Positions 29,422-39,725 of a stretch of 57,774 nt of DNA are shown one piece after another. Position 1 is the first letter of the stretch. The number at the start of each line of letters is the position of its first letter. The stretch is from Victivallis lenta (GTDB lineage Bacteria; Verrucomicrobiota; Lentisphaeria; Victivallales; Victivallaceae), in assembly GCF_009695545.1 (NCBI RefSeq), contig NZ_VUNS01000032.1, positions 1 through 57,774 on the forward strand, in the 5' to 3' direction. Both the position numbers and the translations under genes were made by a program. The notes beneath the pieces are model-generated. The model ran no database searches. It saw only the letters and a list, made by a program, of their open reading frames with translations, and was not told where the DNA came from.

Positions 29422-29793
29422 TCAGTGCCGTCGGGCTTTGCGCGACATTTCTTCTTCTGACAAGCCGGGAATATTATTGCGGAGTGCCTGCTTGCTCCTA
29501 ATCTCTCCGATGATCTTATTGGCCCAGGAAGCCAATTCAATCTCATTGAACAAAGCACTGTATCCTTCATAGGGACATCTGCCGTTGTCCCAATTTTGAA
29601 TGGTCCTTCTGGTAAACGAATGTTTTACTTCAAGGTCACTGAGGCGCCGAAAGGCTGTATTGATGATGGCAACTTTTTCTGCAAGCGTCAATAGGCGCTT
29701 CGGTTTCATTGCCTGAATGTCGGCCTTCTGGAGCTCATCCAATCTCTGCAAAATTTCATCGACGGAACGTTTTTCTCGGAGTTCATGCATCAT
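29422..29793 (-). CDS. Hypothetical protein coupled to the integrase
   Basis: 123 residues starting MMHELREKRSVDEILQRL. Its ATG overlaps the recombinase stop by 4 bases, so the two are translationally coupled. The segment LTLAEKVAIINTAFRRLSDLEVKHSFTRRTIQNWDNGRCP reads like a Cro/XRE-type or terminase-like helix-turn-helix region. The C-terminus is acidic then basic. It may modulate integration or expression. No named family is recognised. Confidence 0.65.
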   Translation of the reverse strand: MMHELREKRSVDEILQRLDELQKADIQAMKPKRLLTLAEKVAIINTAFRRLSDLEVKHSFTRRTIQNWDNGRCPYEGYSALFNEIELASWANKIIGEIRSKQALRNNIPGLSEEEMSRKARRH

Positions 29794-30857
29794 CTCTCCG
29801 CGCGTTGTATATCAGGTTTGTAGGAGAAGATCATCCAATTTTTCAGAGAAGAGATCGAACTGAGTAAGTGGAGCCAGCCAGGGCGAACTGCCTTTCCGCG
29901 CAACTTTGATTTCAGACCTATTTTTATTGCTTTCATAAATAATTTTGAGTAAAATAGAACCATAGACTTTCTCCTTCTGACGTTTAGAGTAGGAAGACGC
30001 TGTGCAGCTTCCCGTAGATCATCCAGATCGTTGTGATTGGCGTAGTATTCCGCCATCGCCACCGTTTTATGACCGGCAAGCTTCATTCTGACACTGACCG
30101 GAATTCTGGCTTTATTTGCCAGGATACAATAAGAGTGGCGAAGGCTGTGATGATCTTTGACGCTGGCGACCCGGCGTTCCGGTATCTGTATTGAAGTCGT
30201 GATGCCAAGTCCTTTCAGGAATTTGATTACACGGTACGAAACACAACCGGAATGGCGCAGATACATTTCCGCATGTTCCGGGAAGACATATTGACCGGTT
30301 TGCGGCTGAAACCGAAGCAGTTTTTCTATATCGGGGGTAAAAAACAGAACCATATTCGCTCCGGTTTTGCTGCGGTTACGTATGATGGCCTGCGCTTTCC
30401 TATCGACATTATCCCAGGTCATTGTACAGATATCGATTTCAGGCCAACCGGAAGCTCCGATCAGAAAGAGGGGACGGCAGAAACGGGCGTATTGACACCA
30501 GTGATCAAATTGATCGGATTGGCCTTGATAGACGTTTCGCATTCGCTGCGGATCTTCGGATATCCCTTCGGCGATTCTTGCGATTTCCTCCTGAGTGTAG
30601 ATTCTCCGGGGAGTGCTCTCTTCTTCCGGCAGGATAACTTCGCTCCAGGGACTGACAATCAGCCCGGCATCTTCCATCAGGCGGGTGAAGATTCCTCGGC
30701 AAACGCAGACGATTTCTTTGATCGTCTTGGCCGAAATCCGATAACGGCTGTGATAGCAGACTTCGCGTGACATGTGACCATTTTGAACAGTATACCGGAT
30801 TTCTTTCCGGAAACGTCCGTTATCGGTCAGATATTTGACATAGGCTTCGCAGTGCAA
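29790..30857 (-). CDS. Tyrosine recombinase, catalytic part (frameshifted from its N-terminus)
   Basis: 355 codons from the first ATG, but homology-like sequence continues upstream in this frame to about 30930 (EENWQDFRAYIAHFYPDITE), where it should join the 30902-31291 frame. The catalytic domain shows the box-I region IGASGWPEIDICTMTW, the Lys hairpin NRSKTGANM, then KDHHSLRHSYCILA (His-x-x-Arg), LAGHKTVAMAEYY with the probable Tyr nucleophile. The usual box-I Arg seems replaced by Pro. It is close to the remnant at 3693-4526. The gene reads away from the tRNA 75 bases beyond its N-terminal fragment's upstream flank, which is the normal site for a tRNA-targeting integrase. Confidence 0.8.
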   Translation of the reverse strand: MHCEAYVKYLTDNGRFRKEIRYTVQNGHMSREVCYHSRYRISAKTIKEIVCVCRGIFTRLMEDAGLIVSPWSEVILPEEESTPRRIYTQEEIARIAEGISEDPQRMRNVYQGQSDQFDHWCQYARFCRPLFLIGASGWPEIDICTMTWDNVDRKAQAIIRNRSKTGANMVLFFTPDIEKLLRFQPQTGQYVFPEHAEMYLRHSGCVSYRVIKFLKGLGITTSIQIPERRVASVKDHHSLRHSYCILANKARIPVSVRMKLAGHKTVAMAEYYANHNDLDDLREAAQRLPTLNVRRRKSMVLFYSKLFMKAIKIGLKSKLRGKAVRPGWLHLLSSISSLKNWMIFSYKPDIQRAER

Positions 30858-31402: not shown

Positions 31403-31447
31403 CCATTTTTCAGCTGCTCTCTCGGCATTTCCGAGCTGGAAAAATGG
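31403..31447. repeat. Nested inverted repeat touching the tRNA 3' end, candidate attachment or terminator site
   Basis: The outer arms CCATTTTTCAGCT (31403-31415) and AGCTGGAAAAATGG (31434-31447) match except for one extra base. The inner arms CTCGG and CCGAG (31421-31435) enclose CATTT. The right arm includes the CCA end of the tRNA. It lies between the integrase and its presumed tRNA target. Confidence 0.5.
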
Positions 31448-31519
31448 TAGCGGGGAATGGAATCGAACCATTGACCTTCAGGTTATGAGCCTGACGAGCT
31501 GCCACTGCTCTACCCCGCG
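31445..31519 (-). tRNA. tRNA-Met (CAT), probably the initiator
   Basis: 75 bases including an encoded CCA. The cloverleaf folds: acceptor CGCGGGG against CCCCGCT, D-stem GAGC/GCTC, anticodon stem TCAGG/CCTGA around CTCATAA, T-stem AATGG/CCATT with loop TTCGATT. Position 1 is C and 72 is T, so the first pair is unpaired as in bacterial initiators (which usually have C-A). Only two of the three G-C pairs typical of initiator anticodon stems are present (29-41 is A-T). The 3' end faces the integrase, marking it as the probable insertion target. Confidence 0.93.
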
Positions 31520-35313: not shown

Positions 35314-35434
35314 AGCTTATTCAGGGATAAGTTCTTAGCATTTATCTGCGGATGAAGCTCTCTCCGTCTGCGGAGAAAGAATGTTCGGGATTCTTCTCCG
35401 AAACGGAGCGCCTGCGTTATGCGGGAAATGCCCG

Positions 35435-35914
35435 TCAACGTTTCCGTGAAGTGTTTCCCGCTGTTTTTCTGGCTCCGCTTTTGACGGATCTTGCGCCGCT
35501 CTTCACTTTGGACTTCACCGCGGAGGCGGCTTTCTTCACCTTGCCTTTCACGGCTTTCATATCCGAACGGGCTTTTTTGTCGGCACGCCTGATATCTTTC
35601 TTGACTTCGGCCGTGTCAGGCGTTTTTTTTTCCGCCGATTTCACTTCGCCGTTTTTCCCGTCTTCGTCTTCTTCGGCGCCGTCTTCTTCCCCGCCGCCGT
35701 CGTCTTCTTCGTTGTCTTCGTCGCCCTCCTCTTCCTCGTCATCGTCCTCTTCTTCGCCCTCCCCTTCCTCCCCGTCTCCGTCGACGCCCCCTTTCCAGCC
35801 TTTCTTAAGCTCGTAGCCGGCGCTGCCGATGTATCTGGCGATTACCGGAATACGCTTGTAGCCGAAAAACAGAATCAACAGGATCACGGTCAGCAATAAT
35901 GTAAAAGCGGTCAT
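35435..35914 (-). CDS. TatA-like membrane protein with polyacidic linker and lysine-rich tail
   Basis: 159 residues from ATG 35914, which is 6 bases past GGAGGAGGAT. Residues 1-18 are one hydrophobic helix. FFGYKRIPVIARYIGSAGYE at 16-35 looks like the TatA hinge (Phe-Gly) and amphipathic helix. Residues about 44-88 are almost only Glu, Asp and Gly. About 95-159 are Lys/Ala/Ser-rich (KVKKAASAVKSKVKSGAR) like histone H1 or polyhydroxyalkanoate-associated tails. No tatC is near. True Tat function is doubtful because the tail is unlike that of ordinary TatA. It is the last gene of the amylase-proximal cluster. Confidence 0.7.
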   Translation of the reverse strand: MTAFTLLLTVILLILFFGYKRIPVIARYIGSAGYELKKGWKGGVDGDGEEGEGEEEDDDEEEEGDEDNEEDDGGGEEDGAEEDEDGKNGEVKSAEKKTPDTAEVKKDIRRADKKARSDMKAVKGKVKKAASAVKSKVKSGARSVKSGARKTAGNTSRKR

Positions 35915-36038
35915 AATCATATCCTCCTCCCGATATTTATGAATGATCCCGCACAGCCGGGAATGACGCCGCCGGGCCGGGCGCATTTCACAGCGGCCCG
36001 GCCCGGCGCCGCAGGCGATCACCTGCGGCCCCGAAACC

Positions 36039-36662
36039 TTACTTCACAACAACACGCTTGAAAGCAACGACTTCCTTGTCGCTGTCGCCGAAGACGGTCG
36101 CAGGCATGTTCTGAAGCACATCCTCCCAGGCTTCGCCGGTGGCGGTAAAGACCGCAACGCCGTCCTCGTCTTCGATCTCCTCGTCGAAGGTGGTGAAAGT
36201 CATCACCGGCGGCAGTTTCCTGTCTTTGAGGGCCTTGCCGAGATCCGGAGACGGATAGCGCAGTTGCAGCGTATCGCCGTGGAATTCGACTTTCGCCAGT
36301 GCATGGACCGGGAAGAGCATCAGCGCGGCAATACTCTTTTCCAGCCTGGAATCCGGCATCTCCTTCAGGATCGCGTCGACATACACGCCGTCGCCGACAC
36401 GGAAGAACTGCACGGCAAGCTTCGCCGTCTGGACCTGCTCGCGGCCGTCCACTTTGCGGGTTTCCCGCACAAGCACGGTTCCGTCCTTGTCGATCTGCAG
36501 ATTGACCGCCTCGTCGAGACCGCCCTGCGGCTCGGCATACCACTGGCCGACCAGCTGCGCCGGCACATCGATCTTGTTCTTGCCGGTGTAGAACGGTTTG
36601 GCGAAATAAGTCCGCGAACAGCCCGTCATTGCCACCGCCGCAAACGCACACATCAGCAACAT
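36039..36662 (-). CDS. Lipoprotein of unknown function
   Basis: 207 residues from ATG 36662. MLLMCAFAAVAMTGCSRTYF is a lipoprotein signal with Cys15. The mature part is beta-rich: LVGQWYAEPQGG, VNLQIDKDGTVLVRET, VGDGVYVDAIL and a C-terminal EVVAFKRVVVK. LVGQWY followed by a repeated strand pattern recalls lipocalin-like proteins measuring small lipids, but this is weak. No ribosome-binding site lies close to the ATG; GAGGAG is about 23 bases upstream, so a non-ATG start a few codons earlier is possible. Part of the six-gene cluster. Confidence 0.72.
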   Translation of the reverse strand: MLLMCAFAAVAMTGCSRTYFAKPFYTGKNKIDVPAQLVGQWYAEPQGGLDEAVNLQIDKDGTVLVRETRKVDGREQVQTAKLAVQFFRVGDGVYVDAILKEMPDSRLEKSIAALMLFPVHALAKVEFHGDTLQLRYPSPDLGKALKDRKLPPVMTFTTFDEEIEDEDGVAVFTATGEAWEDVLQNMPATVFGDSDKEVVAFKRVVVK

Positions 36663-36788
36663 TGTGATTTTTCCCGTCTTTGTTTCTCCTCTTTTGTATT
36701 TCGATGGTCTTCTCCTCAGGAAAAACGCCCGGATGTCGCGGGCCCCTTCCCCCATACACTTCCCCGGCGCCTGAACCGGGGCGAAAAG

Positions 36789-36999: not shown

Positions 37000-37356
37000 T
37001 TACCGCAGCAGCACGGCGGCGGCCGTCGCAGCCGGCGCGGCGCTCCCCGAACTGAACAGCGCAATGCCGAACAGCAGGCCGAGCAGGAAAGTTATGATAA
37101 AGGCCAGCACGTAGGCAAGCAGAACCGTCAGAATGGCGCTGCCCCACGACATTTTCCCCCAGTAGACCAGCAGAAACAGCACGACGATCAGGCCGATCAG
37201 AAAGCCCACCGCGGGAATCGCCGAGCAGATCGAGCCGATCAGCGCGATCACGAACAGCGTTCCGTAGGAGGTTTTGTTGCCGGTAATCCGGGTCGCAAGG
37301 TAGAAAAACAACGCCTGAACGGCAAGCGCGACGACAAACGACAGTAAAGAAATCAT
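37000..37356 (-). CDS. Four-helix inner-membrane protein
   Basis: 118 residues with GAGG about 8 bases before the ATG. Four hydrophobic segments at about 2-20, 32-50, 54-68 and 76-100 (LLSFVVALAVQALFFYLA, GTLFVIALIGSICSAIPAV, FLIGLIVVLFLLVYWG, AILTVLLAYVLAFIITFLL). There is no charged pore motif or catalytic residue. It resembles generic DUF-type small membrane proteins. It lies 14 bases after the CBM48 gene in the same transcript. Confidence 0.75.
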   Translation of the reverse strand: MISLLSFVVALAVQALFFYLATRITGNKTSYGTLFVIALIGSICSAIPAVGFLIGLIVVLFLLVYWGKMSWGSAILTVLLAYVLAFIITFLLGLLFGIALFSSGSAAPAATAAAVLLR

Positions 37357-37369
37357 AACGACAGCCTCC

Positions 37370-37666
37370 TCAGTTTTCCGTTTCTTCCACTTTAAGCACG
37401 TTGTTCAGCGTGCCCATTCCGTTGACGGTGATGTCCGAATTGTCCAGGTCGAGCATCCAGTTGCCGTTGACGATGAACTTATACTGGTAGACGCCCGGTT
37501 CCAGCTCGACTTCAGCTTCGAAATTTCCGTTCCCGTCATCCTTCAGCGGAATTTCCCTTTCCCGCCAGCCGGTGAAGCAGCCGGCAAGATAAACCTCGCT
37601 GCCGGGAGCGGCCTGAACGGTGAACTTTCTCTTGAGTCCTGAATGTTTCTTTGCGGCGACAGACAT
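37370..37666 (-). CDS. Stand-alone CBM48 / AMPK-type glycogen-binding domain protein
   Basis: 98 residues from ATG 37666, with GGAGG 8 bases upstream. The sequence RKFTVQAAPGSEVYLAGCFT followed by GWREREIPLKDDGNGNFEAE and then GVYQYKFIVNGNWMLD is a complete glycogen-binding beta-sandwich, with the Trp and Lys/Asn of the sugar site. Nothing else is attached, whereas CBM48 normally precedes a GH13 enzyme. The downstream transcript has an alpha-amylase upstream of it (38199-39644), which supports an alpha-glucan function. Likely cytoplasmic. Confidence 0.88.
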   Translation of the reverse strand: MSVAAKKHSGLKRKFTVQAAPGSEVYLAGCFTGWREREIPLKDDGNGNFEAEVELEPGVYQYKFIVNGNWMLDLDNSDITVNGMGTLNNVLKVEETEN

Positions 37667-37690
37667 ATTTGTTTCCTCCTCTTCCAATGG

Positions 37691-38059
37691 TTATTTGACA
37701 CGGCCGATTTCGGTATTGTCGGCTTTCCGGTCCTGAAGGGCCGGAACCGGATTCTCCGCCTCCTCCGAGCGATAATCCCTGCCGTTCTTCCCGATATACT
37801 GCCAGTTGACCTGCTTTTGCTGTTCCTGTTCGTTGCGGCGGACTTCCGCCAGGTCGCGGCGAAGGTCGTTATTGCCGCAGTTGCGATGGAAATTGTGCTG
37901 GAACATCACGGATTCCACCTCAATGCCGTTCATCAGGATGATCCGGCATTTCGTGTGCGGGTCCACGGTGTTCTTGTCGTACGGCGCGGCGTACAGCGTT
38001 TTCCAGTCCATCGGATAATTCTTGATGCTCTTCGGTTTCTCTTCAAACGGATTCATCAT
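37691..38059 (-). CDS. Hypothetical soluble protein of the amylase-proximal cluster
   Basis: 122 residues with GGAGG 6 bases before a tandem ATG. The N-terminal half is beta-rich (YAAPYDKNTVDPHTKCRIILMNGIEVE) with FQHNFHRNC next to it. The C-terminal half is charged and helical (LRRDLAEVRRNEQEQQKQV). Two Cys and three His lie close together in the middle, which could bind a metal. No family is recognised. It is the first gene of the six-gene cluster, 25 bases from the CBM48 gene. Confidence 0.65.
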   Translation of the reverse strand: MMNPFEEKPKSIKNYPMDWKTLYAAPYDKNTVDPHTKCRIILMNGIEVESVMFQHNFHRNCGNNDLRRDLAEVRRNEQEQQKQVNWQYIGKNGRDYRSEEAENPVPALQDRKADNTEIGRVK

Positions 38060-38198
38060 TCTGCACCTCCTCTATTGTGCATGAATACAAATTTACCCTT
38101 TCCTCAACAGGATAAATTTCTCTCTTGAAAGCAGTGGGGGTCCGGTTGGAAGCAGTCAGTCACCGGAGAATCTCCCCGTCACCCCGGCGGAAACGGAT

Positions 38199-39644
38199 TT
38201 ACTGCCTGACCCAGACCGACACCGAGCCGCCGTTGCAGCGGAATTCGGCGCTGCCGTCGTCATCGATGACGACGGTCTCTTCCCGGTTGCCGGTGATGTC
38301 GCGGAAAGTCGCTCCCCGGAACTTCTCCCCGACATACATGCGCTTGCTTCCTTCTCCGCCGTTGGTCATGACGCAGGCGAGGCCGGAATTTTCATGCCAG
38401 TCGTCGCCCTCGCGCGTCCAGCCGATCGTATTCGCGTGGTCGAAGTAATCGTTCTGCCTGCCGTACGCGCAGCGTCTCCGGGCTTCAAGCAGCGGGAGCA
38501 GCCCGGGGCGCATATCCGGAATTTCATCGTGGGGAATTCCATACCAGTCGCCGTAGAAAACACACGGATACCCCTCCTGACGCAGCAGGATCAGCGCATA
38601 CGCAAGCTGGCGGAACCAGCCCTGCACCCACGATTCGAGCGACTGCCCGGGCTGGCTGTCATGATTATCCACGAAAGTGACGGACTTGGCCGGATTGTCT
38701 TTCGTCAGCGTATTGTCGAAGATGGTCCGCATATCGAACTTGTTTCCCTCGTTCGAAGCCTTCAGGAAATTGTAATGCAGCGGCACATCGAACAGCGACA
38801 GCGCGCCGACCGTGGTATCGAGGTAATGCTTCAGCGCATCCAGATCCGGACTCCAGTACTCCCCGACCGTGAACAGCTCTTCGCGTTCCTTTCGGCGCAA
38901 TGCATCGAGCCAGTCGTGATAGAAGGTAAATTCCATATGCTTGACCGCGTCGAGACGGAAACCGTCTACATCGGTCTTCTCAAGAAACCATTTTCCCCAG
39001 CGGGTCAGCTCTTCGATGACCTCCGGGTTATTCAGGTCCACATCCGCGCCCATCAGGTAATCGTAGTTGCCGTTCTCGCGGTCGACGTTCTCCTGCCACT
39101 CCTTGCCGCGGAATTTGAAAACGCCGTTGTCGTCGTGCTTCGCATCATGGTCGACCGCGATGAAATGGTTCCAGTGCCATTCGAAATCGGAATATTTTTT
39201 GTTGCGGCCCGGAAACATGAAGTGCGTGTACGCTTCGATCTTCCTGCTCCGCTCCCCGAGCTGCTCTTCGCGATTGTCGGGCTTGTACTCTTTGGCCATC
39301 GCCTCTTCGGCTTCGTCCCCGCCCATCCGGTGATCCAGGACGATATCGGCGTAGACCTGCAGGCCGCTCTCGTGGCAGGCCCGGATTGCGGCAAGCAGCT
39401 CTTTCAGGGTTCCGTACCTGGTCGGGACGGAGCCTTTCTGGTCGAATTCGCCGAGGTCATACAGATCATAAACCGCATAACCGACGTCCTCCGCTCCGGA
39501 ATTTCCCTTGTAACAGGGCGGAATCCAGACGCCCGTAATTCCCGCCGAAGCCAGCTCCGGCGCCTCCTTCTCCAGTTGCTTCCACAGCATTCCGGACGGC
39601 AGATACCATTCGAAATACTGCATCATCGTACCGTTTCCGCTCAT
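38199..39644 (-). CDS. Cytoplasmic alpha-amylase, GH13
   Basis: 481 residues from ATG 39644 with AGGAGG 5 bases upstream. GH13 regions: ADIVLDHRMG (I), DGFRLDAVKH (II, Asp nucleophile), FTVGEYW (III, Glu acid/base) and FVDNHDSQPGQ (IV). MMQYFEWYLPSG at the start and FYGDWYGIP are typical of the GH13_5 liquefying or cytosolic amylases. There is no signal peptide. It degrades starch or glycogen inside the cell. The next gene on this strand starts 140 bases downstream, so a shared transcript with the six-gene cluster is possible but not proven. Confidence 0.94.
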   Translation of the reverse strand: MSGNGTMMQYFEWYLPSGMLWKQLEKEAPELASAGITGVWIPPCYKGNSGAEDVGYAVYDLYDLGEFDQKGSVPTRYGTLKELLAAIRACHESGLQVYADIVLDHRMGGDEAEEAMAKEYKPDNREEQLGERSRKIEAYTHFMFPGRNKKYSDFEWHWNHFIAVDHDAKHDDNGVFKFRGKEWQENVDRENGNYDYLMGADVDLNNPEVIEELTRWGKWFLEKTDVDGFRLDAVKHMEFTFYHDWLDALRRKEREELFTVGEYWSPDLDALKHYLDTTVGALSLFDVPLHYNFLKASNEGNKFDMRTIFDNTLTKDNPAKSVTFVDNHDSQPGQSLESWVQGWFRQLAYALILLRQEGYPCVFYGDWYGIPHDEIPDMRPGLLPLLEARRRCAYGRQNDYFDHANTIGWTREGDDWHENSGLACVMTNGGEGSKRMYVGEKFRGATFRDITGNREETVVIDDDGSAEFRCNGGSVSVWVRQ

Positions 39645-39725
39645 GTTCTCCTCCTCATGGCGTTCTCTGAACCGGACGCTCTCCACTTCATCCGGATCAG
39701 GTGGCTGCAAGTATTTGCATTAATT

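Follow-up and report, generated by a model that had tools for sequence, protein, structure and literature searches.

The window analysed here, a 57,774-nucleotide stretch of one contig of the gut bacterium Victivallis lenta, carries on its minus strand a gene at 35435-35914 whose product (159 aa, followed by a stop codon) joins a TatA-like N-terminus to an acidic and then a basic tract. The frame has two in-frame ATGs, at 35920 (161 aa) and 35914 (159 aa), both of which are kept in Victivallis vadensis. Because an AGGAGG box lies 8 nt before the ATG at 35914 and 2 nt before that at 35920, the former is the more probable start. Residue numbers given throughout start at the ATG at 35920. The features of the locus are as follows.

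35435..35914, minus strand: whole coding sequence; frame conserved in V. vadensis
35786..35920, minus strand: TatA-like region, residues 1-45, with one transmembrane helix, an FGYKRIP hinge and a short amphipathic helix; matches PF02416 and TIGR01411 below their curated cut-offs; 45/45 residues identical in V. vadensis
35648..35791, minus strand: acidic linker, residues 44-91, with 30 Asp/Glu (net -29) and no predicted structure
35438..35647, minus strand: basic tail (net +18), residues 92-161; amphipathic pattern repeating every 11 residues, helix predicted at 103-159
35923..35928, minus strand: AGGAGG ribosome-binding site, conserved in V. vadensis
35971..36029, minus strand: two hairpins between the lipoprotein-like gene and the TatA-like gene, present in V. 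vadensis too
36039..36755, minus strand: lipoprotein-like gene upstream of the TatA-like gene, syntenic in V. vadensis

The gene and its neighbourhood

An earlier note on this DNA had described an acidic tract followed by a basic one, and this order holds: the acidic block of the window copy spans 48 residues, 30 of them Asp or Glu (net -29), and the basic block spans 70 residues with 25 Lys/Arg and 7 Asp/Glu (net +18). The whole protein is near neutral, with a net charge of -6 in the window copy and -4 in V. vadensis. The window holds 142 open reading frames that encode 100 aa or more. In none of the others are acidic residues packed as densely over 40 positions: this protein reaches 29/40 and the runner-up 17/40. 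At the DNA level TRF finds no repeat units in the charged tracts beyond short or imperfect ones (68-90% matches), and the codons there are mixed, so the acidic tract is no simple DNA repeat. A repeat or assembly artefact, which the earlier note had kept in view as an explanation of the tracts, is ruled out: V. vadensis, which was sequenced separately, has the gene and both tracts, with scattered synonymous changes. The TatA-like charged-tail gene is thus a real, conserved gene.

A long Ser/Pro-rich frame on the opposite strand (35352-35816, plus strand) overlaps the charged tracts and is partly open in V. vadensis also. We rejected it as a true gene, given that the first 45 codons of the minus-strand frame show 13 synonymous and 0 non-synonymous changes between the two species; it is a by-product of GAA/GAC-rich codons.

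Upstream of the TatA-like gene, the same strand carries the genes for the lipoprotein-like protein and a small membrane protein, then those for a glycogen-binding protein of the CBM48/AMPK type and an amylase; V. vadensis keeps this order. On the downstream side, which in the window holds an HD protein and FeoB, no match was found within the 10 kb examined in V. vadensis. Both the lipoprotein and the CBM48 protein have paralogues in the genus, and in five regions (first 150 residues per open reading frame) no similar charged protein was seen adjoining the lipoprotein paralogues; the neighbours therefore give no function. In four Victivallis loci (L050, L052, L053 and L054), the lipoprotein paralogues adjoin sensor-like genes and electron-transport genes, the latter of which we take to be Rnf-like. 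The small CBM48/AMPK1_CBM protein sits between the small membrane protein and the alpha-amylase within 37000-39710 and is matched at two other places in the genome. Elsewhere in the window, a phage-integrase family gene (29790-30857) and a tRNA-Met gene (31445-31519) are about 0.6 kb apart and possibly mark an island boundary.

The intergenic gap upstream of the TatA-like gene is structured in both species. The gap as a whole folds with z scores of -3.2 and -3.7, and 0 of 200 shuffles fold equally well in either species. The stem of the second hairpin differs in V. vadensis yet stays paired, and the hairpins are not followed by a T run. Allowing up to 2 mismatches, the first hairpin occurs only once in the window.

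Descent from TatA and the residues lost

The N-terminal 59 residues match PF02416 with an E-value of 3.2e-4 (20.3 bits, against 16.8 for the whole protein and a curated cut-off of 21) and TIGR01411 with an E-value of 1.2e-5 (24.8 bits, curated cut-off 53.9). The V. vadensis copy scores 21.7 bits against PF02416, just above the cut-off. TatB was rejected as an identity, as its model, TIGR01410, falls below the TatA model TIGR01411 in score. Among solved structures the best sequence match is TatA, albeit weakly (E 0.015), and one TatA encoded in the V. lenta genome shares 49% identity with the protein over 37 residues. The TatA-like N-terminus claimed in the earlier note is therefore supported by these family matches, which lie at Pfam's cut-off, and by the paralogue in the genome, and from its sequence we judge the protein to be a diverged TatA paralogue by descent.

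Like TatA and TatE, the protein has a single N-terminal membrane helix, an FG-x-K-R-I-P hinge, an amphipathic helix with G and E, and a charged tail. It differs from them in lacking three near-invariant residues, in its more hydrophobic membrane helix and in a gene that lies apart from tatC. We compared it with 57 ordinary TatA cores, a non-random sample that was collected by pattern, made unique and drawn mostly from the better matches of our searches, and in which F, G and P are invariant by construction, these residues being part of the collecting pattern. In the membrane helix, 12 residues ahead of the FG Phe, Thr replaces the E, Q or D found in 56/57 cores; after the Pro the protein has Val where 57/57 have Glu or Asp; and at the FK-motif position (E. 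coli F39) it has Leu where 57/57 have Phe or Tyr. The FG hinge, Pro, Gly, Glu and the amphipathic helix are retained. The Thr at the polar position is still small and polar and can hydrogen-bond, and E. coli TatB is not known to carry a Phe at the FK position. On a hydrophobicity scale, the best 19-residue window of the protein scores -4.9 and is more hydrophobic than those of the three TatAs of the same genome (+0.9, -1.7 and -2.1). In E. coli, loss of the polar residue of the membrane helix is reported to abolish or severely compromise Tat transport (PMC5201420), a Q8A strain with TatE present to be largely active (PMC10092561), and F39A to give inactive TatA assemblies (PMC10092561, PMC13186574). 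A review describes the polar residue as capping the hydrophobic run at 12 residues and as important for membrane weakening, and notes that a PG motif replaces it in Bacillus subtilis TatAd (PMC13186574). Because three near-invariant TatA marks are lost, the protein is probably not a working Tat subunit and its role probably lies outside export.

The tail is about four times the length of the ordinary TatA median (31 aa after the core), and its charge is segregated. Charge order in ordinary TatA tails was read for those longer than 60 aa, which are 2 of the 57. An ordinary TatA of a different family in the same order (L108:1480-1902) has an acidic and then a Lys-rich tail, shorter than that of Victivallis, behind normal TatA residues. 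The acidic-then-basic order is therefore not unique to the Victivallis protein, and the earlier description of the domain order as unusual is mostly right. Among the matches listed in searches of open-licence PMC papers there was no TatA with a histone-like or acidic tail, an 11-mer repeat or polyampholyte character.

The only full-length relative found is that of V. vadensis DSM 14823 (L042), at 78% identity, so that the gene occurs in 2/9 genomes of the genus and 2/78 of the family. Another 59 family genomes match at E<=1, and those inspected are ordinary TatA. The gene is present in 2/197 genomes of the class (E<=1e-7), and full-length matches occur in 2/387 sampled genomes of the phylum; in 52 further phylum genomes only the TatA-like part and a portion of the acidic linker are matched, never past residue 99. 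No viral relatives were found by phage tblastn with the N-terminus or among viral contigs. A wider family of the tail was rejected, the two weak matches in genus g2 (E about 0.003) lying in frames that are interrupted by a stop and show no TatA features.

Between the two Victivallis species, the first 45 codons carry 13 synonymous and no non-synonymous differences (dN 0, dS 0.60), leaving 45/45 residues identical, while the dN/dS is 0.22 for the acidic part and 0.20 for the basic tail, all of these estimates resting on the one pair of sequences known. As a control, the cores of ordinary TatA orthologues from the same two species are identical at 41-42 of 44 residues. By this comparison, the N-terminus is constrained at least as much as that of a working TatA. 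The earlier note had proposed asking whether the tracts vary in length but persist among relatives, and here they do: the acidic block shrinks from 48 residues in the window copy to 40 in V. vadensis, with 30 acidic residues and a net charge of -29 in each, and the basic block is 70 residues long in both, with a net charge of +18 and +20, respectively.

These data bear on the possibility, which we consider unlikely but the strongest of the alternatives, that the protein is an auxiliary, TatE-like TatA subunit acting in trans with a TatC and that its tail is an enlarged, dispensable charged region. The genome encodes two TatC proteins and three ordinary TatAs, on contigs C16 and C10 and none of them on this contig, and has two tatA-tatC loci. 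The earlier statement that no tatC lies nearby is accurate for this contig (C32), where we found no TatC match, but misleading for the genome, where two strong matches lie elsewhere. TatE-type genes need not sit in the tatC gene cluster. An auxiliary subunit would also fit the retained hinge, Pro, Gly, Glu and amphipathic helix, an N-terminal constraint equal to that of true TatA, and descriptions of TatA tails as normally charged, unstructured and unconserved (PMC5601993, PMC13186574). However, the membrane-helix acid or amide, the post-Pro acid and the FK Phe are all gone, the gene does not adjoin tatC and is found in only two of the nine genus genomes, and the charge and periodicity of the tail are constrained, unlike those of a dispensable tail.

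Periodicity of the basic tail

When the basic tail is written in rows of 11, its hydrophobic residues align. Hydrophobic autocorrelation peaks at lag 11 in both tails (0/10,000 shuffles in the window copy and P 0.0008 in V. vadensis), with weaker signals at lags 4 and 7. Near 100 degrees, the helical moment of a 45-residue stretch is reached by 2/5000 and 30/5000 shuffles in the two species; the excess is less clear over the first 36 tail residues (165/5000 and 357/5000). AlphaFold predicts helices at residues 2-31 and 103-159 with no structure between them (mean pLDDT 59.5, the best block of the basic helix reaching 82). In this model the hinge of TatA and its surface helix run together as a single helix, a part predicted with low confidence. 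Foldseek returned no match of this model to the PDB.

Exchangeable lipid-binding amphipathic helices show this 11-residue pattern, and the periodicity points to an amphipathic helix of this 11-mer type. The tail resembles apolipoproteins, synuclein, group-3 LEA proteins and perilipins in its 11-residue periodicity of small hydrophobic residues, its Lys-rich polar face and its long predicted helix, but differs from them in that it is strongly basic, is attached through an acidic linker to a membrane anchor, and has no significant family match. The best Pfam match of the window tail alone is Apolipoprotein (PF01442), a weak one (E 0.022, 14.9 bits against a cut-off of 90), which was not found in Pfam for the V. 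vadensis tail. The source reference for 11-mer repeats is an entry in the reference list of a review (PMC6164224).

The tail had previously been called histone-H1-like. It shares with the H1-like proteins Hc1 and Hc2 a basic composition rich in Lys, Ala and Ser, but differs in being Pro-poor, amphipathic with an 11-mer pattern and predicted to be membrane-anchored. We rejected an H1-like tail because of the lack of any H1, Hc1 or Hc2 match in Pfam at E<=10, the single Pro and the 11-residue hydrophobic periodicity. This weighs on the bridge from the membrane to DNA or a polyanion suggested in the earlier note. A bridge to some polyanion is possible; in the form considered here, the basic tail would bind DNA or RNA and tether nucleic acid or ribosomes to the membrane. 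A net charge of +18 to +20 and a tail placed in the cytosol by the positive-inside rule would suit such a tether. We regard this tether as unlikely, however: beyond the missing H1, Hc1 and Hc2 matches and the scarcity of Pro, DNA binding needs no hydrophobic stripe every 11 residues, and a linker of net charge -29 next to the tail would be expected to keep nucleic acid away.

A possible latched membrane anchor

We tentatively favour, with a confidence that falls short of calling it probable, a stand-alone, diverged TatA paralogue that has left export and serves as a membrane anchor, with a basic helix that docks on a polyanion and an acidic linker that acts as a latch. The TatA-type membrane helix and surface helix would anchor the protein in the inner membrane and leave the remainder in the cytosol; we infer a cytosolic tail because Lys/Arg residues follow the membrane helix. 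The unstructured linker, with about 30 Asp/Glu, would keep the basic helix near the membrane surface, and this amphipathic helix of roughly 57 residues, built on the 11-residue repeat, may dock reversibly on an anionic surface. That surface would most likely be the anionic inner leaflet, or otherwise RNA, DNA or another polyanion. Alternatively the basic helix may fold back onto the acidic linker, which would be competitor, electrostatic latch and spacer.

The near-neutral protein with its segregated charge blocks could also be a self-associating polyampholyte, in which the acidic and basic tracts of neighbouring protomers pair to form a condensed membrane patch, and the polar residue is reported to be dispensable for TatA oligomer formation (PMC5201420), but a similar proposal for TatA, the 'charge zipper', found no support in vivo (PMC5601993) and we consider this improbable.

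Returning to the latched anchor, a more speculative and rather unlikely extension is that a TatA gene duplication in one Victivallis lineage, followed by loss of the TatC-dependent export marks, gave rise to an 11-mer anchor, held by the latch, that senses or coats anionic membrane; the protein would then be a bacterial counterpart of the exchangeable lipid-binding proteins, derived from part of a protein translocase. The ability of the TatA module to weaken membranes is central to models of Tat transport. If the anchor reading is true, the TatA module can be freed from TatC and reused as an anchor. The protein would also amount to a natural experiment that separates the TatA residues linked to export from the rest: the polar residue and the FK Phe are lost, while FG, Pro, Gly and Glu are kept in an N-terminus that is identical at 45/45 residues in the two Victivallis species.
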